From: a virus
IMG/VR virus record: IMGVR_UViG_3300028025_001492
Span: 1 to 40,218 of that record
Strand: one strand, 5' to 3'
Length of the DNA stretch: 40,218 nt
Positions within the stretch are counted from its first letter, which is position 1; each line of letters starts with the position of its first letter. The position numbers were made by a program, and so were the translations under genes. The notes beneath the pieces are model-generated. The model was not told the DNA's origin. It was given only the letters and a program-made list of their open reading frames with translations, and ran no database searches. Below are positions 477 through 6,518 of this stretch, in pieces.

Positions 477-493
477 AGTGGGACAAGCCCACT
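477..493 (+). promoter_or_regulatory. 5' mRNA hairpin AGTGGG-ACAAG-CCCACT
   Basis: Six base pairs close a 5-nt loop ACAAG. The hairpin sits directly in front of the TTAAGACAGGAGAA ribosome-binding element. The same GGG-A(C/A)AAG-CCC core recurs at 1251-1269 and 1537-1553, again just before a start element. It may protect the mRNA 5' end or regulate translation. Confidence 0.55.
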
Positions 494-510
494 TAAGACA
501 GGAGAACCAA

Positions 511-1191
511 ATGAAAACCGCAACAACAAGAAAAACCGCAAAAGTTGAAGACATCTTTCAACTTAAGACCGAATCTCTTAGCCCTATCACTACCGCATTA
601 GAAAAGGCTCACGAGATTATCAAAAAGGAAACCGACGCACCCCGCGCCACTATCACAATCACCAGAAACACCAAGGGCAAGAAAGCACATTTCACACATT
701 ACAAGCCTTGGAAATCTGGTGAAGAATCTTTCAACGAGATTATGTTCAACGCCGATTTCTTCAGAAATGGCGCGGAGGGTGTTCTTGCCACTTTATTGCA
801 CGAAATCGCTCACTCTTTAAATTACAAGAACGGCGTGAAAGATTGCACCGACGAGCAATATCACAACAAGCAATTCGCAAAAGTTGCCGAGGGCTTAGGT
901 CTTAAGACCGAAAAGATAAAGCGTTTTGGATTTGCCCTAACTACATTAACACCAGAGGGCAAGGAAAAATGGGCAGAGGCTTTTGACATAATCGCCGAGG
1001 CTTTAAAGATAACCGCAATTCAAGAATCCGAGTCAGCCCCTAAGGGACGCAATAAGAATCTACTAGTGGCAAGTTGCGAGTGCGGGGAAAAAATCCGCTT
1101 AAGTCTTAAGACGTTAGAAAAGTGTGCCCCTATCTGCCAAGATTGCGAGACCGAGTTCAAGACAGAGGAATCAGAAGGAGACGACAACTAG
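511..1191 (+). CDS. SprT-like zinc metallopeptidase
   Basis: This 226-aa protein has the gluzincin motif HEIAH at residues 97-101 and a likely third zinc ligand at His118 (YHNKQF), the HExxH...HxxxF layout of SprT-like proteases. The C-terminus has a zinc ribbon, CxC near residue 189 and CxxC near 209. SprT/Spartan-type proteins cleave DNA-bound proteins; versions are common in actinophages, where the role is unknown. The start is the ATG at 511 because TTAAGACAGGAGAACCAA lies directly before it; an upstream in-frame start near 460 overlaps the promoter. It is the first gene of the early rightward operon. Confidence 0.85.
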   Translation: MKTATTRKTAKVEDIFQLKTESLSPITTALEKAHEIIKKETDAPRATITITRNTKGKKAHFTHYKPWKSGEESFNEIMFNADFFRNGAEGVLATLLHEIAHSLNYKNGVKDCTDEQYHNKQFAKVAEGLGLKTEKIKRFGFALTTLTPEGKEKWAEAFDIIAEALKITAIQESESAPKGRNKNLLVASCECGEKIRLSLKTLEKCAPICQDCETEFKTEESEGDDN

Positions 1192-1199
1192 CAAGAAAA

Positions 1200-1269
1200 G
1201 CCCCCCGCCCGCTAACGACGGCGACGGTTCAAGACCGACGAGGGGCGCGAGTTAGGGAAAAGCCCTAAC
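1200..1269 (+). ncRNA. Structured leader RNA element, copy A
   Basis: In the gap between genes the RNA can form P1 GCCCC/GGGGC (1200-1204 with 1242-1246), an internal hairpin CGG-TTCAAGA-CCG (1225-1237) whose 7-nt loop matches the tRNA T-loop consensus UUCRANN, and a second hairpin GTTAGGG-AAAAG-CCCTAAC (1251-1269). The start element and ATG at 1290 follow at once. CTAAC at 1212-1216 can also pair with GTTAG at 1251-1255, giving a possible alternative fold. Copy B at 1485-1553 has the same order of parts with a different stem sequence. It does not match any riboswitch class I can recall. It could be a cis-regulator or riboswitch. Confidence 0.55.
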
Positions 1270-1289
1270 CAATTAAGACAGGAGAAAAA

Positions 1290-1442
1290 ATGAAAATCAC
1301 TTATACAATCTGGCAAGGCTCTTTAATGAAGGGCAGACTAACCGCTAAGAATATGAAAGAAATCGTCACCCTAATTGGCGAACTTAACGAGGGTAATCCA
1401 ACATTAAAGTTCGAGTACTTAGTTCACGAGATAGAAAAATAA
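1290..1442 (+). CDS. Small hypothetical protein, 50 aa
   Basis: An ATG follows TTAAGACAGGAGAAAAA at good spacing and the frame runs to TAA at 1440-1442. The product is a soluble alpha/beta mini-protein with no recognisable domain. The gene sits behind structured leader copy A, so its translation is likely regulated. Bases 1351-1466, covering most of this gene, are repeated in inverted form at 1-116. Confidence 0.75.
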   Translation: MKITYTIWQGSLMKGRLTAKNMKEIVTLIGELNEGNPTLKFEYLVHEIEK

Positions 1443-1466
1443 ATATAACTTAAGACAGAAAGAAAG
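1351..1466. repeat. Right arm of the 116-bp perfect inverted repeat
   Basis: This is the exact reverse complement of 1-116. The arm covers codon 21 to the stop of the 50-aa gene and the CTTAAGACAGAAAGAAAG element at 1449-1466. The spacer between the arms is 117-1350. Confidence 0.95.
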
Positions 1467-1484
1467 AATGTGATTCAATTCACA

Positions 1485-1553
1485 GCCCCAAATAGTTAAA
1501 GGCTACGGGTATTCAAGATACCATTGGGGCACTAGGTAAGGGACAAGCCCTTA
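1485..1553 (+). ncRNA. Structured leader RNA element, copy B
   Basis: P1 is GCCCCAA/TTGGGGC (1485-1491 with 1524-1530). The internal hairpin is GGTA-TTCAAGA-TACC (1508-1522), with the same T-loop-like UUCAAGA as copy A. A downstream hairpin TAAGGG-ACAAG-CCCTTA (1537-1553) is followed by TTTTAAGATAGGAGAA and the ATG at 1575. A small hairpin TGTGA/TCACA (1469-1484) lies just upstream. The segment before the T-loop stem is GGCTACGG here and GGCGACGG in copy A. Conserved loops with changed stems fit a selected RNA structure. Confidence 0.55.
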
Positions 1554-1574
1554 TCTTTTAAGATAGGAGAAAGA

Positions 1575-1835
1575 ATGTTAATCAAGATAGCAACAGATAA
1601 CGACGCAAGCGGAAATCCTCGCAGAGGTTGGCTAAGGACAACGGCAAGCGGTCAGGTTCTAGGCTGGATTGAGGAGGGCTACCTTGGAAGAGGGGCAATC
1701 GAAGGCTACGACGACGGCGAGAGTCCCACTATCTACGTCAAAGTTAGAGAATATAAGAGATTCAAAAAGTGGGGCGAAACTATTCAAAATAATTTCGGCT
1801 CAATGTACAACTTAAGACAGAAAGAAAGCAAATGA
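1575..1835 (+). CDS. Hypothetical protein, 86 aa
   Basis: The ATG at 1575 follows AGATAGGAGAAAGA behind structured leader copy B. No family is recognised. The product looks like a small beta-rich soluble protein. Its last residues (NLRQKESK) are encoded by a CTTAAGACAG element that serves as the start region of the next gene; the stop overlaps that gene's ATG. Confidence 0.75.
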   Translation: MLIKIATDNDASGNPRRGWLRTTASGQVLGWIEEGYLGRGAIEGYDDGESPTIYVKVREYKRFKKWGETIQNNFGSMYNLRQKESK

Positions 1836-1990
1836 AACTAACCAGACGAGGACGCAGAGTAAGGGCGGTAATATTGACCGCCCTAGGGCTGGGGATTATC
1901 TGGCTATTAAACGACATCACAACACCCGACCAATGCAAGGTGGAGTTCGAGAATCTTTCTCAGTTCTGCCTTGATTTACTTTACAAATAA
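1832..1990 (+). CDS. Small single-pass membrane protein, 52 aa
   Basis: The frame starts at the ATG overlapping the previous stop (AATGA). An arginine-rich N-terminus is followed by one hydrophobic helix (about residues 10-27) and a short acidic tail with two cysteines. The positive-inside rule suggests an N-in orientation. Function is unknown; small early phage membrane proteins often act in superinfection exclusion or host takeover, but nothing here shows that. Confidence 0.7.
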   Translation: MKLTRRGRRVRAVILTALGLGIIWLLNDITTPDQCKVEFENLSQFCLDLLYK

Positions 1991-2017
1991 AAACAACGAC
2001 TTAAGACAGGAGATAAA

Positions 2018-2161
2018 ATGAATGAAGTTATGATTTACAAAGAAGGCAAAGAGTGGAGGGTTGCACTTAACCCTAGAACTAATTGCAAAATCTATTGCGT
2101 GGCTACCAAAAGACGAGCCACAGAATTAGCAAATGATTTACTACTTAAGACAGGAGAATAA
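2018..2161 (+). CDS. Small hypothetical protein, 47 aa
   Basis: The ATG follows CTTAAGACAGGAGATAAA. No domain is recognised. The C-terminal LLLKTGE is encoded by the next gene's start element (2144-2158), and the next ATG lies 2 bases past the stop. The start element and tight packing support a real gene. Confidence 0.7.
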   Translation: MNEVMIYKEGKEWRVALNPRTNCKIYCVATKRRATELANDLLLKTGE

Positions 2162-2162
2162 A

Positions 2163-2273
2163 ATGGATATAAAAGAAATAGTGGGCTGGTTAAACCATAG
2201 CCTAACCTTAAAATGGAATGATGAAGTAGCGACGGCTAGAGATTTATTACTTAAGACAGGAGAAAACAAATGA
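2163..2273 (+). CDS. Small hypothetical protein, 36 aa
   Basis: The ATG follows CTTAAGACAGGAGAATAAA, and the stop overlaps the next start (ATGA). The C-terminus LLLKTGENK is again encoded by the following start element at 2250-2264. The length is near the lower limit for a gene, but the signals are the same as for its neighbours. Confidence 0.65.
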   Translation: MDIKEIVGWLNHSLTLKWNDEVATARDLLLKTGENK

Positions 2274-2419
2274 ACACAATGCAAGACTTAATTAATGCAA
2301 TAAAACTTATACTACCTAATGCGCTAGTGATAGACACCGACGAAGGAATCTTAATTGAAACTAACTTAGAGTTAGGGCTAGGTGGATTACTGCAACCAAT
2401 GGAAACAGAGGGCGACTAA
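2270..2419 (+). CDS. Small hypothetical protein, 49 aa
   Basis: The ATG follows CTTAAGACAGGAGAAAACA and overlaps the previous stop. The protein is acidic and leucine-rich, with no recognised family. Its TAA overlaps the ATG of the next gene. Confidence 0.65.
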   Translation: MNTMQDLINAIKLILPNALVIDTDEGILIETNLELGLGGLLQPMETEGD

Positions 2420-2556
2420 TGAAGGGCGCAAACCAAAACACAAACCAAGTTTATTGCGGGGATTGCCTCGTCTTAATCTCAGAGTGCGGGCACGGCTACG
2501 ACTTAAGACGTGAGACGCAATTCACTAAAAGAACTATTGATTCCAAAAAAAAATAG
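2419..2556 (+). CDS. Small zinc-binding-like protein, 45 aa
   Basis: The frame starts at the ATG overlapping the previous stop (TAATG). It holds a YCGDC...ECGH pattern that could bind one zinc ion, and ends in a lysine run. A CTTAAGAC octamer occurs inside the gene at 2512-2519 but not at a start codon. It lacks a strong Shine-Dalgarno sequence, so translation is probably coupled. Function is unknown. Confidence 0.6.
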   Translation: MKGANQNTNQVYCGDCLVLISECGHGYDLRRETQFTKRTIDSKKK

Positions 2557-2591
2557 TGCAATAGTTAAGCAACGAAAGGACGGGAGAAGGT

Positions 2592-2969
2592 ATGAGCGCA
2601 GAAGAAACTTTAACAATCAGTAAAACCTTTACAGTTAATGAATTATGGGAAGCGGTCTGGGGTTGCGACGGTGCGGGTATGTATTACTGGTGCAGGAAAT
2701 TACGCAAACCAAACTACCAAGGAATAGACTTATGGAAAAGAGTTGACGGCAAACTTACGCCTAACCCTCAACCCGTAAGAGTGTACGACAGCATAGAAGA
2801 AAAGTCTTACGTCGTCGAGGTGGAAGACTTACGCAGGGGGTATGAACTAGCAATCAAAGCAGGTCAAACTCATTGTGGAAATTATCCACTAGACACGCAA
2901 GATTACGACGCTTGTTTCGGAGATTTAATTGTGCAGTATGCAATCTTCGGCGAGTTAATATACGGATAA
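2592..2969 (+). CDS. Hypothetical protein, 125 aa
   Basis: The ATG follows GGGAGAAGGT. This 125-aa globular protein is rich in aromatic residues (about 12 Tyr, 5 Trp). Its composition resembles the widespread actinophage hypothetical proteins of the early region, but no named family can be assigned. It stands in its own interval with 35 bases upstream and a CTTAAGACAGGAGAA element for the next gene downstream. Confidence 0.8.
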   Translation: MSAEETLTISKTFTVNELWEAVWGCDGAGMYYWCRKLRKPNYQGIDLWKRVDGKLTPNPQPVRVYDSIEEKSYVVEVEDLRRGYELAIKAGQTHCGNYPLDTQDYDACFGDLIVQYAIFGELIYG

Positions 2970-2995
2970 ATACTACTTAAGACAGGAGAAATAAT

Positions 2996-3136
2996 ATGAG
3001 AACAAGTAAAGAAATTAAAGACGAACTGGAAGATATTAAACGCAACTCTAAAGCAACAGACGGAACGGAAGATATATTGCTTGGCTGGACAGAAGCCCTA
3101 GAATGGGTGCTATCTGAGTACAAGGAGGAGAAATAA
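2996..3136 (+). CDS. Small hypothetical protein, 46 aa
   Basis: The ATG follows CTTAAGACAGGAGAAATAAT. The product is a charged, probably helical mini-protein. The end of the gene supplies the next ribosome-binding site (AAGGAGGAGAAA), with the next ATG one base after the stop. Confidence 0.65.
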   Translation: MRTSKEIKDELEDIKRNSKATDGTEDILLGWTEALEWVLSEYKEEK

Positions 3137-3137
3137 T

Positions 3138-3497
3138 ATGGGCGCAAGAACAAACTTCCACTTCAAACAAGGGGATAATTTCATAACTCTTTATTCCCAT
3201 TGGGGCGGAGATAGTAAAATGCAAGACTTAGCCTACGCAATCGCTAAGGCTGAGCCAAGGTGGGAAGATACCTCATACGCTACCCGAATAATGATAAGCC
3301 AATTAATCGGTGAGAGTTGGAGTAATGAAACTGGGTATGGTCTCTTCGCTAATTCAATAGGCGGTGAAGAAAGTTATGAGCACACCGTCATTGATGTAGA
3401 TAACAAACTCGTAATAATTGACGGGCAATCTAAATCATACGAGGAGTTTATCTCTTATCACTCAACATCATTTCACGTTGGCGAAATGGTTAACTAA
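3138..3497 (+). CDS. Hypothetical protein, 119 aa
   Basis: A strong AAGGAGGAG site precedes the ATG. This mixed alpha/beta protein has no recognised motif. The N-terminal part (residues 1-20) with FKQGDNFITLYSHWGG resembles small proteins of actinophages that begin with a similar beta-hairpin, but this is only an impression. It is followed by a CTTAAGACGGGAGAA element. Confidence 0.75.
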   Translation: MGARTNFHFKQGDNFITLYSHWGGDSKMQDLAYAIAKAEPRWEDTSYATRIMISQLIGESWSNETGYGLFANSIGGEESYEHTVIDVDNKLVIIDGQSKSYEEFISYHSTSFHVGEMVN

Positions 3498-3520
3498 CTA
3501 CTTAAGACGGGAGAATAAAA

Positions 3521-3712
3521 ATGGTAGCAAGTTACACAGACACAGGCTATAACGTAGCGTCTGGTTCAGATGAAGAAGGTAATGTATGGGAAGCACGTCA
3601 TAGTGGGGGTGAGTATCATCTATTTAAGAATGGAAGATATGCAACTACAATGAGTACTAAAACAAACATTATGGTTTTATTAAATCAAGTCTTAAGACAG
3701 GAGAATAAATGA
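3521..3712 (+). CDS. Small hypothetical protein, 63 aa
   Basis: The ATG follows CTTAAGACGGGAGAATAAAA. It has a beta-rich sequence with a repeated GN/DG-turn character and no known family. The C-terminus VLRQENK is encoded by the next gene's start element at 3691-3705, and the stop overlaps the next ATG. Confidence 0.7.
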   Translation: MVASYTDTGYNVASGSDEEGNVWEARHSGGEYHLFKNGRYATTMSTKTNIMVLLNQVLRQENK

Positions 3713-3840
3713 AACTTGAATGGGTAAAAGTTGAACCTAAAGATATAGAACCACAACTTATGTGGACTGAAGCAACGGGCTGGGTTGAGAAAACAAAACC
3801 AACTCAAGCAATTTATGTCTTAAGACAGGAGAGCAAATGA
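3709..3840 (+). CDS. Small hypothetical protein, 43 aa
   Basis: The ATG follows CTTAAGACAGGAGAATAA. The C-terminus VLRQESK comes from the next start element (3819-3833). This ending is almost identical to that of the preceding, otherwise unrelated protein, showing how the nucleotide element dictates C-termini. Function is unknown. Confidence 0.65.
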   Translation: MKLEWVKVEPKDIEPQLMWTEATGWVEKTKPTQAIYVLRQESK

Positions 3841-4010
3841 AAAACTATAGGATAACTGTAGAGTTAGTGCCGATTTCTTACGAGATAGAGGCAGAGAATG
3901 AAGAAAAAGCCAAGGAATATGCCAAGGATTGTTTCTTTGATGAGACAATTTACGATATATTTAAGTATGCAGAACTACAAACACAACAACTGGAAGGAGG
4001 ACTAAAATGA
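3837..4010 (+). CDS. Small hypothetical protein, 57 aa
   Basis: The ATG follows CTTAAGACAGGAGAGCA. The pattern is a beta-strand (YRITVELVPISYEIEA) followed by an acidic helix with EEKAKEYAKD, like small ferredoxin-fold-type proteins. An AAGGAGGAC site in its 3' end serves the next gene. Confidence 0.65.
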   Translation: MKNYRITVELVPISYEIEAENEEKAKEYAKDCFFDETIYDIFKYAELQTQQLEGGLK

Positions 4011-4156
4011 TAGGCAAGATATGTAGTAAATGTGGCTGGCAATTAAGTGACCCTGATAATGGTTGCATTGATTGCGGTTGGGAAGAGTTCAACTGGGGTT
4101 CACTTATAGAAAGCGCAAACAAACTTATACAACTTAAGACGGGAGTAAAAAAATGA
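4007..4156 (+). CDS. Small zinc-ribbon protein, 49 aa
   Basis: The ATG overlaps the previous stop after GGAAGGAGGACTAA. It has two CxxC knuckles, CSKCG (residues 6-10) and CIDCG (about 20-24), a minimal zinc ribbon. The partner is unknown; it may bind nucleic acid or a host protein. The C-terminal LKTGVKK is encoded by a start element (4133-4147). Confidence 0.7.
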   Translation: MIGKICSKCGWQLSDPDNGCIDCGWEEFNWGSLIESANKLIQLKTGVKK

Positions 4157-4296
4157 TAGACAAAGATGATTGGGAGTTCTGGTATTACAACAGAGTCAAC
4201 GAGTTTTCACAGCGAATACTTGCACCTATGTACAAGGAATTAAACGAGCCAAGTATTAATGATTTGGTAAAGAATGAGGAGGAGAGTAATGCTTGA
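4153..4296 (+). CDS. Small hypothetical protein, 47 aa
   Basis: The ATG follows CTTAAGACGGGAGTAAAAA. The acidic and aromatic N-terminus starts MIDKDDWEFWYY. No domain is recognised. A GAGGAGGAG site in its end serves the next overlapping gene. Confidence 0.65.
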   Translation: MIDKDDWEFWYYNRVNEFSQRILAPMYKELNEPSINDLVKNEEESNA

Positions 4297-4429
4297 CGAT
4301 TCAATAAGTTGGGGAGAGTTAGCACAACTTACACACGCCACCCAAGTAGAAAGATTTAATTGGTGTGGGTGTGAGGAGCAAGAACAATTCCCTTATGATG
4401 ACTGCCCGAAAGTAGAAGCAAATGCCTGA
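4289..4429 (+). CDS. Small hypothetical protein, 46 aa
   Basis: The gene overlaps the previous one by 8 bases, with GAGGAGGAG upstream of its ATG. Cysteines in WCGC and DDC near the C-terminus could bind a metal. The protein is acidic. No known family. Confidence 0.65.
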   Translation: MLDDSISWGELAQLTHATQVERFNWCGCEEQEQFPYDDCPKVEANA

Positions 4430-4559
4430 GCCAAGGTTAGAAGATGACGTGGCATATTATGGATATGAAATGTGTGATGATTGTGGAGAACGGCACGACC
4501 CAGAGCAAGCACACGCTGGCGACGGAGAACCTGACAGAATGTGGGAGGACTTAGATTAA
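4422..4559 (+). CDS. Small cysteine-containing acidic protein, 45 aa
   Basis: The ATG lies inside the end of the previous gene (8-base overlap), so translation is probably coupled; the upstream Shine-Dalgarno is poor. It holds one CDDCGERH motif that could be half of a zinc site. Very acidic. Function is unknown. Confidence 0.6.
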   Translation: MPEPRLEDDVAYYGYEMCDDCGERHDPEQAHAGDGEPDRMWEDLD

Positions 4560-4561
4560 TT

Positions 4562-4786
4562 ATGAAACAATACAGAATAACCTATGAAACAAAGGGCGTC
4601 AGAGTGGTAGATGTGTGGGTAAAGGAGGAATTATTACCAGAAAACTTTGAGTTATACGACCCTAATAAGCAAGATGAGATACTATATTCCCTGCAGTACA
4701 GGGCTGAAGAGGTATTTCAAGACAGCCATAGCGGTCAATGTGTAAATGTTTTGCCAGTATTACAACTTAAGGCGGTAAATAATTGA
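4562..4786 (+). CDS. Hypothetical protein, 74 aa
   Basis: I chose the ATG at 4562, two bases after the previous stop, with GGGAGGAC upstream. The protein has alternating beta and helix segments and starts MKQYRITYETKG, similar in style to the 57-aa protein at 3837. The stop overlaps the TTG start of the WhiB-like gene. Confidence 0.7.
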   Translation: MKQYRITYETKGVRVVDVWVKEELLPENFELYDPNKQDEILYSLQYRAEEVFQDSHSGQCVNVLPVLQLKAVNN

Positions 4787-5031
4787 ACCTTGCTGAGGTG
4801 TTATTGCCACCTGATTGGACAAAGAAAGCCTTGTGCGCTGAGGTAGACCCTGATTTATTTTTTCCTGAAATAGGAGATAACGTGGCAAGGGCTAAAAGAG
4901 TATGCAAAGCCTGTGATGTTAGAGAAGAATGTTTAAAGTATTCATTAGACAATGACGAAAGGTTTGGCATATGGGGCGGACTATCAGAACACAACAGAAG
5001 AGAACTAAGGGCAAAAAGAAAGTTGGGTTAA
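4783..5031 (+). CDS. WhiB-like (Wbl) iron-sulfur transcription regulator
   Basis: At 82 aa this is a typical actinophage-size Wbl protein. The four conserved cysteines are C18, C41, C44 and C50 (the C...CxxCxxxxxC pattern that holds a [4Fe-4S] cluster), followed by the family's turn GIWGG at 62-66 and a basic C-terminus. Wbl proteins bind the host principal sigma factor and change promoter choice; phage copies can block host WhiB2 function or exclude superinfection. The start is TTG at 4783 after CTTAAGGCGG, a degenerate start element. This gene is the clearest evidence for an actinobacterial host. Confidence 0.95.
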   Translation: MNLAEVLLPPDWTKKALCAEVDPDLFFPEIGDNVARAKRVCKACDVREECLKYSLDNDERFGIWGGLSEHNRRELRAKRKLG

Positions 5032-5429
5032 AGTTTAAGGCGATATTCTTAGCCTTATTAGTTATAACTTTAACTTTATTTTCTATAAACAAGATAGACT
5101 CACCCTCTAAATCTCCTAATCCACAGCCGACAAAGGCTACAATGGAGCAGAAGAAAGCCAACAAAGCGGTGGCTAAAGAGTTTGCGTGGGCTGGGTATGG
5201 TTGGAAGGATAAACAATGGAGTTGCATCTCTAAATTATTTACAGCCGAGTCAAGGTTCGACCATTTTGCAGACAACCCTAAGTCAACTGCATATGGAATA
5301 GGGCAAGTGTTAGGTGAGAAATCTAATATCCCAGAGATTCAGATTCTAAGAGCGTATAAATATATTAAGCACAGATATACCACACCCTGCAAGGCGTGGA
5401 ACTTTCATTTAAAAAGGAATTATTATTGA
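4971..5429 (+). CDS. Membrane-anchored lytic transglycosylase-like protein
   Basis: This 152-aa protein has a basic N-terminus, one hydrophobic segment (about residues 22-39) acting as signal or anchor, a Ser/Pro-rich linker, and an SLT-like core. The core has Glu93 in TAESRFD and AYGIGQ at 107-112, the catalytic Glu and Gly-Gln motifs of goose-type/SLT muramidases. It should cut peptidoglycan glycan strands outside the membrane. The start at 4971 overlaps the WhiB-like gene by 61 bases; no later ATG fits the transmembrane segment. Its place among early genes, far from the lysis cassette, is unusual. Confidence 0.75.
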   Translation: MGRTIRTQQKRTKGKKKVGLKFKAIFLALLVITLTLFSINKIDSPSKSPNPQPTKATMEQKKANKAVAKEFAWAGYGWKDKQWSCISKLFTAESRFDHFADNPKSTAYGIGQVLGEKSNIPEIQILRAYKYIKHRYTTPCKAWNFHLKRNYY

Positions 5430-5782: not shown

Positions 5783-6099
5783 TTGAATTAGTCTGTCCTA
5801 AATGTGGCAAAACCTTTGAAAGACAAGGGAAAAAACGGGGCAAAATGCCCTATTGTTCACCTTGTAAGGGTGATTCTTCCTCTTCAGATTCCTCTGACTC
5901 AACAAAATCTTTATCATTGTATGGCTTGTATCCACCTAGTCTGCGAACTAATTTACCTATAGCCCTCTTGTGTCTCATACGAGATGTGTCTTCAGACCCA
6001 AGACTTAAGACATTAGCAATCTCTTTAAAGTCTAATGACTCTGCGTGGCGCATAAACAATATGCGTCTGTCTTCTTTATTTAATTTCCAGAATGCATAG
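5779..6099 (+). CDS. Zinc-finger protein with antisense C-terminus
   Basis: The first 32 residues hold CPKCG and CSPC, a clear zinc-binding pair, and a basic stretch KKRGK. From about codon 24 the frame runs antisense through the 3' end of the convergent sigma-factor gene (overlap 5850-6099), and that part has a serine-rich, low-information composition. The start overlaps the FmdB-type gene stop. Either the protein really has this tail or transcription ends early at the hairpins of 5838-5873. Only the N-terminal half can be called with confidence. Confidence 0.5.
   Translation: MIELVCPKCGKTFERQGKKRGKMPYCSPCKGDSSSSDSSDSTKSLSLYGLYPPSLRTNLPIALLCLIRDVSSDPRLKTLAISLKSNDSAWRINNMRLSSLFNFQNA
5830..5850 (-). 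terminator. Terminator of the leftward replication operon
   Basis: On the minus strand the RNA reads GGGCA-TTT-TGCCC, then CG and six U residues (A run at 5830-5835 on the plus strand). It is a compact intrinsic terminator whose stem touches the stop codon of the sigma-factor gene. It lies inside the coding region of the convergent zinc-finger gene. Confidence 0.7.
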
Positions 6100-6518
6100 T
6101 CAACCTCAAGCATAAGCACTACTAAGTTTCCACCTTCTGATGGTGCACTAGGACGTCCAGGTCCACCAAGATTTAATTTATGTGACACACCAAACTCTTG
6201 TCTTAAGACAGCAGGTAATATAGTTTCTACAATTTCAGATGTGTAATAAAATAAATCACTAACATCATAGCCAACAGACTTAGCCTTCCAGCGTTGGCAA
6301 TAATCAATAGCCTGATTTCTAAGCGACTTATAGATTAAGTTCTTTGCATCACGCTCACCCTTTGCTTCCCATTCTTTTAATTTGTTTGGGTGTTCAGCAA
6401 ACCATAACCATAATGCCTGTCTTAAGTCAGCAACCTCTACCATATTAAACTTCCTATTGTATTCTGAGGCTACTGTATCTACAATATAATCCCACTTCTT
6501 TACTTCGTCCCAATTCAT
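5850..6518 (-). CDS. Phage RNA polymerase sigma factor, sigma-70/ECF-like
   Basis: This 222-aa protein has a region 2-like N-terminal half (DLRQALWLWFAEHP, about residues 32-45, in place of the usual DLxQExxLxxW) and a C-terminal region 4-like helix-turn-helix (KEDRRILFMRH...SLDFKEIANVL...DTSRMRHKRAIGKL, about 148-195). It should redirect host RNA polymerase to phage promoters. It is the last gene of the leftward operon, overlapping the upstream gene by ATGA. The tail is acidic. The AT-rich promoters near 11770-11817 and at the right window end are natural candidates for its targets. Confidence 0.75.
   Translation of the reverse strand: MNWDEVKKWDYIVDTVASEYNRKFNMVEVADLRQALWLWFAEHPNKLKEWEAKGERDAKNLIYKSLRNQAIDYCQRWKAKSVGYDVSDLFYYTSEIVETILPAVLRQEFGVSHKLNLGGPGRPSAPSEGGNLVVLMLEVDYAFWKLNKEDRRILFMRHAESLDFKEIANVLSLGSEDTSRMRHKRAIGKLVRRLGGYKPYNDKDFVESEESEEEESPLQGEQ
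5857..5873. terminator. Weak hairpin between convergent operons
   Basis: TCACCTT-GTA-AGGGTGA forms a 7-bp hairpin with one G-U pair. On the plus strand it is followed by TTCTTCCTCTTC, which may serve as a poor termination signal for the rightward operon. It lies within coding sequence on both strands. Confidence 0.35.

Follow-up and report, generated by a model that had tools for sequence, protein, structure and literature searches.

A covarying RNA element with tRNA-like dimensions lies between the small genes of phages

Both leader RNAs that we analyzed in a 40,218-base phage record (IMG/VR record IMGVR_UViG_3300028025_001492, the whole of which is referred to as the window) are members of an RNA family that is absent from Rfam. 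On the evidence of its predicted structure, we propose that the element works like the top half of a tRNA, without claiming that it is a tRNA or a mascRNA, and it probably serves to cut or insulate viral messages. Our own reading, put forward tentatively and with rather less than even confidence, is that the element is a form of tRNA-like punctuation that may be cut, or at least recognized, by tRNA-processing enzymes, with flanking hairpins that would guard the new ends. The family is apparently undescribed, has more than 150 distinct sequences, and occurs in freshwater actinobacterial phages, the host being a lake bacterium that is abundant worldwide and that has been brought into culture along with two of its phages.

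The minus strand of the window carries terminase, portal, tail, primase, helicase, and sigma-factor genes, and a plus-strand module of small genes (at ∼500–5400) houses the two copies of the element, A and B, which are 285 nt apart. Copy A follows a SprT-like gene (511–1191, plus strand; PF10263, E = 2.6e-7), the stop codon of which (1189–1191) is located 8 nt ahead of it, and precedes a gene (1290–1442, plus strand) for a 50-amino acid protein of unknown function with no match in Pfam or PHROG. Copy B precedes a gene (1575–1835, plus strand) for an 86-amino acid protein, also of unknown function, which has no confident match in Pfam or PHROG. The gene at 4783–5031 of the same module, which we read as WhiB-like, has closest bacterial relatives that are all actinobacterial. 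Further, we note that the window contains a 121-nt inverted repeat (1–121 versus 1346–1466, 99% identical), such that the record opens with the reverse complement of the end of the gene preceding copy B; this repeat is either an assembly artifact or a true terminal feature.

Both copies were located where the first-pass annotation had placed them, and the features it had described as shared, i.e. P1, a T-loop-like hairpin, a GGGAMAAGCCC hairpin, and a start element, are all present in copies A and B. In copy A (core at 1200–1250, plus strand; 46.6 bits, E = 2.4e-9 with the R2 model described below), P1 consists of 8 bp (1200–1207/1239–1246), including one C-A mismatch, and is followed by P2 (1209–1211/1219–1221) and P3 (1225–1227/1235–1237), the latter closing a T-loop-like loop (1228–1234); the junction adenine is A1238, and the tail is GCGA (1247–1250). 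Hairpin P4 (1251–1269, plus strand; GTTAGGG-AAAAG-CCCTAAC) and the start-associated element with its Shine-Dalgarno sequence, ATTAAGACAGGAGAA (1272–1286, plus strand), lead to the start codon at 1290. Copy B (core at 1485–1534, plus strand; 75 bits with the R1 model and 65.7 bits, E = 1.7e-14, with the R2 model) is abutted upstream by an additional hairpin, P0 (1469–1484, plus strand; TGTGA-TTCAAT-TCACA), which copy A does not have. Its P1 has 7 bp (1485–1491/1524–1530), P2 is at 1493–1496/1502–1505, P3 is at 1508–1511/1519–1522 with its loop at 1512–1518, the junction adenine is A1523, and the tail is ACTA (1531–1534); P4 (1534–1556) and the start-associated element with its Shine-Dalgarno sequence, TTTAAGATAGGAGAA (1557–1571), follow on the plus strand ahead of the start codon at 1575. 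The minimum free energy z-scores of the two copies are −2.6 and −3.2; these scores, and the recovery of copy A by a model from which it was left out (see below), speak against a chance fold. The strand previously described as GGC(G/T)ACGG combines the 3′ strand of P2 with the linker between P2 and P3, helix P2 itself having been overlooked.

The entry point to the family was a set of 47 IMG/VR loci related to the 86-amino acid protein of copy B, and most of the close relatives have the same fold upstream, made from stems of different sequence. A first covariance model (R1), for which seven nearly gapless copies served as the seed and copy A was left out, recovered copy A (23.8 bits, E = 0.009) among its 137 matches, which lay in 86 loci, and two pattern scans and a rebuilt model (R2) enlarged the set to 263 model matches, spread over 136 phage loci. 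These represent 159 distinct cores, which is the safer count because a few contigs entered twice. P1, P2, and P3 all covary: 92–96% of the cells are paired compared with ∼70% in shuffles, both-sided changes are seen in 273–309 helix cells compared with 83–92, and the covariation score is 0.51–0.58 compared with 0.15–0.17 after shuffling and at most 0.09 when the partners are slid. In one of these comparisons, the paired share was 92.8% versus 69.8%, with 287 versus 88 both-sided changes. In P2, G-U combinations (63) far exceed A-C combinations (8), indicating that the coding-strand RNA is the molecule that folds. The first-pass annotation had proposed a structured cis-acting RNA of a new kind and had named compensatory changes in related phages as the feature to look for; such changes are present, and the covariation supports the proposal. 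It could not match the leaders to a known class, and Rfam 15 likewise has no match at gathering thresholds. No description of the element was found in the open literature searched, and the novelty is provisional because that search covered few subscription papers.

Dimensions were taken from the 147 distinct cores that our script parsed (12 were left unparsed). P1 has 7 or 8 bp, opening with GCC/GGC, and a linker of 0–2 nt joins it to P2, a short hairpin; P3 has 3 or 4 bp and, in 142 of the 147 cores, a 7-nt loop. The lengths of P1 and P3 are 8 + 3 in 51 cores, 7 + 4 in 79, and 7 + 3 in 17, the total being 11 bp in 130 cores. Because P1 and P3 trade lengths, the distance from the loop to the end of P1 is constant, at exactly 12 nt in 130 of the 147 cores. 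A single adenine (J31 A) joins P3 to P1 in 144 of them. The stems occur in many sequence types (34 for P1, 58 for P2, and 34 for P3), and individual positions are conserved: G1 in 197 of 200 copies, A73 in 191, C74 in all 200, and A at N-1 in 167, with a single-stranded tail of consensus A-C-N-A. All 195 of the 7-nt loops have C56 and R57, and only 68 of them (35%) have U54 together with A58. The T-loop architecture described in the first-pass annotation is thus partly borne out, by the loop length and the invariant C56 and R57, the U54/A58 pair being present in a minority of the loops. P4 starts 0–1 nt past the tail in 156 of the 160 copies that have it, with a mean energy of −10.1 kcal/mol compared with −3.9 kcal/mol in shuffles; it is stable in more than 90% of copies, and the Shine-Dalgarno element then follows. 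P0 ends against P1 in 96 of 225 copies, mostly as GUGA(N)-GNRA-(N)UCAC; 51 of the 96 loops are GNRA, in one orientation throughout, and the P0 loop of copy B (TTCAAT) differs. In some loci, a P0-type hairpin is located downstream of the element instead of upstream.

In a tRNA, the 7-nt T loop has conserved C56 and R57, a distance of 12 nt (5 + 7) separates its end from the final base of the acceptor stem, and the tail reads N-C-C-A. The phage element is like tRNA in the 12-nt distance, in the 7-nt loop with C56 and R57, and in A73 and C74, and, by sequence comparison, P1 and P3 resemble an acceptor arm stacked on a T arm (for the dimensions of which see PMC4919913) within a compact three-way junction. 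The element differs from tRNA (RF00005) in that it has no D arm, has a short P2 in place of the anticodon arm, does not conserve U54 and A58, does not have C at N75, and contains the extra unpaired A. No copy reached the gathering threshold of RF00005, and ARAGORN called no tRNA in the window, its only call in 15 phage loci being an unrelated tRNA-Arg in one (L025). For copies A and B, a permissive Rfam scan gave nothing but chance matches; when two copies of the AGG/CCT type were scanned permissively against 4227 families, mascRNA-menRNA (RF01684) was the best family (E = 0.014 and 0.02), with scores of 20.3–21.7 bits that are below its gathering score of 42.5. The phage model had 36 weak matches in 23 actinobacterial genomes, and 19 of these (4 of 7 and 15 of 29) overlap tRNA genes on the right strand, where ∼0.02 would be expected from the tRNA share of the sequence, by our estimate ∼50 tRNA genes of 76 nt per 3-Mb genome. 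These overlaps are support rather than proof because other GC-rich structured RNAs might also draw the model. Further, the core had few blastn matches in named phages, one of them being a phage tRNA-Lys.

P1 starts a median of 11 nt past the upstream stop codon, which is 6–9 nt ahead of P1 in about half of the copies, and 203 of 221 copies have an upstream ORF that ends no more than 80 nt from P1, compared with 54 of 221 random positions. The downstream start codon lies a median of 93 nt from the start of P1 (middle half, 90–98 nt). Each phage has 1–4 clustered copies, none of the 136 loci has copies on both strands, and the downstream proteins form 62 clusters of small genes (∼60 unrelated families) with no common theme. 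From the stop-codon position, the single strand, and the 62 downstream clusters, we conclude that the element marks gene junctions and not a pathway; even without cleavage, many unrelated genes would share one leader by position, not by function. A terminator or promoter at the element was rejected, as a scan for intrinsic terminators and promoter consensus sequences gave no more matches than were obtained in shuffles, and none at the copies. We note that the window encodes a sigma factor of its own (5850–6515; PHROG 354, E = 5.6e-18), which may use phage promoters that are invisible to a sigma-70 consensus scan.

The tRNA ruler, the intercistronic site, and the hairpin at each flank together suggest processing. 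Enzymes of the host that gauge the acceptor/T-arm helix would bind and cut the element, most likely RNase P on the 5′ side of G1 and RNase Z on the 3′ side of position 73. Such cuts would split the polycistronic mRNA, so that the upstream message would end in P0, where P0 exists, and the downstream message would start 2–4 nt ahead of P4, which would protect it and leave its Shine-Dalgarno sequence free. RNase P gauges T-arm/acceptor length (PMC4919913) and cuts several phage, mRNA, and operon RNAs (PMC11143913), the tRNA mimic mascRNA owes its maturation to RNase P and RNase Z (PMC11693755), and, in the account of Emory et al. (1992) given in PMC3997798, 5′-terminal stem-loops can stabilize bacterial mRNA. 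The fully specified version, in which D-arm-less tRNA mimics punctuate polycistronic mRNAs and would be excised by host RNase P and RNase Z to leave hairpin-capped ends, is possible but seems doubtful to us. Cleavage is argued against by the lack of a D arm and of a conserved partner for the T loop, by the small share of loops with both U54 and A58 (68 of 195), by the Rfam results for RF00005 and for copies A and B, and by the unpaired A, which breaks the stack; the RCC-GGU contact would be partial because N75 is not C, and P0 set against P1 could obstruct RNase P. It is because P0 adjoins the cleavage site and the D arm is missing that we hold our confidence in punctuation at the level given at the outset. 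If punctuation is true, phages would have their own equivalent of the tRNA punctuation of mitochondria and of the processing of mascRNA, and, if the tRNA mimicry is functional, a dedicated processing or insulating signal would be reused between phage protein genes. The element also offers a direct test of how far a tRNA mimic can be shortened, here to the loss of its D arm, and still be recognized by tRNA enzymes.

Punctuation has two serious rivals, an operator bound by a protein and a passive device that insulates genes or couples translation. As an operator, the element would be gripped at the loop, the junction A, and the A-C tail by an RNA-binding protein of the phage or its host, whether a tRNA binder or not, which would switch downstream translation and make the small genes a regulon. 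The few invariant unpaired bases (J31 A, C56, R57, A73, and C74) in a variable scaffold, the constant start-codon spacing (median, 93 nt), and the 1–4 copies per genome are consistent with this, but the Shine-Dalgarno sequence lies outside all helices, no alternative pairing covaries, and the operator is without a candidate regulator; we regard it as rather unlikely. As an insulator, stabilizer, or sensor of upstream translation, the element would have its P1 covered by the terminating ribosome, and its hairpins would protect the mRNA or separate the translation of neighbors without any cleavage. Such a device does not account for the tRNA ruler, for the bases that are invariant in the loop and tail, or for the presence of the element at only some gene junctions, and we think it unlikely, even though its site right behind stop codons, the stable P4 in more than 90% of copies, and the sequence variation of the stems agree with it.

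The metabolite riboswitch that the first-pass annotation had considered is, in our view, very unlikely. It would account for a compact junction with conserved unpaired bases ahead of a start codon, but the 62 downstream protein clusters have no coherent theme, a phage has several copies (1–4), no Rfam aptamer scores above threshold, no expression platform is seen, and the element sits behind stop codons and not at a promoter. An on/off fold, in which a core strand of copy A would pair with P4, had also been suggested and does not stand, as core-P4 pairing is no better than that between unrelated copies; across the family, the z-scores for complementarity of core segments were −0.1 with P4 (L2w-P4) and −1.1 with the ribosome-binding site (L2-RBS). 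Kissing of loops L2 and L3 was likewise rejected, true pairs being less complementary than permuted ones. The put RNA of phage HK022 is a cis-acting row of adjoining hairpins in a phage leader, and the adjoining hairpins seen here in phage operons recall it. An RNA-encoded transcription antiterminator of this type is nevertheless highly improbable: neighboring copies of an operon are separated by only a few hundred nt (285 nt for A and B) and would be redundant for a processive modifier, and the start-codon spacing indicates a local effect. The element differs from put in density and position. We note that TGTGA-N6-TCACA, found at 1469–1484 and in L040, L093, L121, L124, L067, L078, and L143 with mostly GNRA-type loops, resembles a CRP/GlxR site. 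P0 as a CRP-like DNA palindrome was rejected, an RNA hairpin being likelier given that 51 of 96 loops are GNRA in the same orientation. A site acting at the DNA level, whether as a recombination or cassette junction or as a regulator-binding palindrome in P0, has in its favor the CTTAAGAC repeats that flank many copies on both sides and the varying gene content behind the same leader; strand-specific wobble pairs, GNRA loops in constant orientation, and compensatory changes make it extremely unlikely.

Among described systems, mascRNA and menRNA are like the phage element in having a 7-bp acceptor-like stem, one middle hairpin, and a T-arm-like hairpin with a UUCAAG loop and in being embedded in a longer transcript. 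They form the 3′ ends of animal nuclear long noncoding RNAs, whereas the phage element lies between protein genes; the small D arm of mascRNA includes two guanines that are essential (PMC11693755), whereas the phage element, with its P1–P2 linker of 0–2 nt, has no D arm to supply guanines that would dock into the T loop and has an unpaired A between the T-arm and acceptor helices. The RNase P substrates in T4 gene 32 mRNA, in the C4 antisense RNA of P1 and P7, and in polycistronic operons (PMC11143913) are also structured RNAs in or between genes, but these are single cases, whereas the phage element would be a repeated and dedicated one, and its cutting is putative. In Cluster K mycobacteriophages, the short SAS repeat occurs at the starts of some small genes, and about half of the SAS are preceded by an extra, sequence-conserved 17-bp inverted repeat (ESAS) (PMC3203893). 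This arrangement is comparable to CTTAAGACAGGAG with or without the phage element; however, the phage stems vary freely, with the numbers of P1, P2, and P3 types given above, and form a covarying three-way junction. Membership in SAS/ESAS was rejected, as conserved 17-bp inverted repeats beside a 13-bp start repeat are not what we found.

Outside the metagenomic loci, three copies are present in OX376640.1 and two in OX376641.1 (L174 and L259), unannotated GenBank records of the Ca. Planktophila phages LanE43AprE7 (E7) and AprF5 (F5). These two isolates (PMC10202952) were the first phages of Ca. Nanopelagicales to be brought into culture, and no others are in culture. Nine other cultured actinophages gave no convincing match, and the exact pattern had no match in 84,980 genomes. 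A search of 463 actinobacterial genomes returned one convincing copy (L256), one tRNA, and one doubtful match. A host gene as the origin was rejected, as this sole convincing copy belongs to a phage-like operon of a high-GC actinobacterial genome, where it follows the gene for a Cas4-type exonuclease. It consists of the core and an ACAA tail between two genes (L256 1501–1550, minus strand) and lacks P4, which suggests that the core is older and P4 an addition.

Two further observations concern the sequences around the leaders. The start-associated repeat with its Shine-Dalgarno sequence, CTTAAGACAGGAGAA, occurs 11 times at 492–4147 and 13 times in the window as a whole, where 0.15 would be expected, and CTTAAGAC is also found upstream of many leaders, so that each leader lies between two copies. 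Further, a relative of the copy B gene has a leader resembling a type II hammerhead ribozyme (L045 3650–3708; RF02276, 31.7 bits, E = 3.9e-5, under the gathering score of 37), and the same sequence is found upstream of the gene in L046; in other phages, the tRNA-like element occupies the place of this hammerhead-like sequence.
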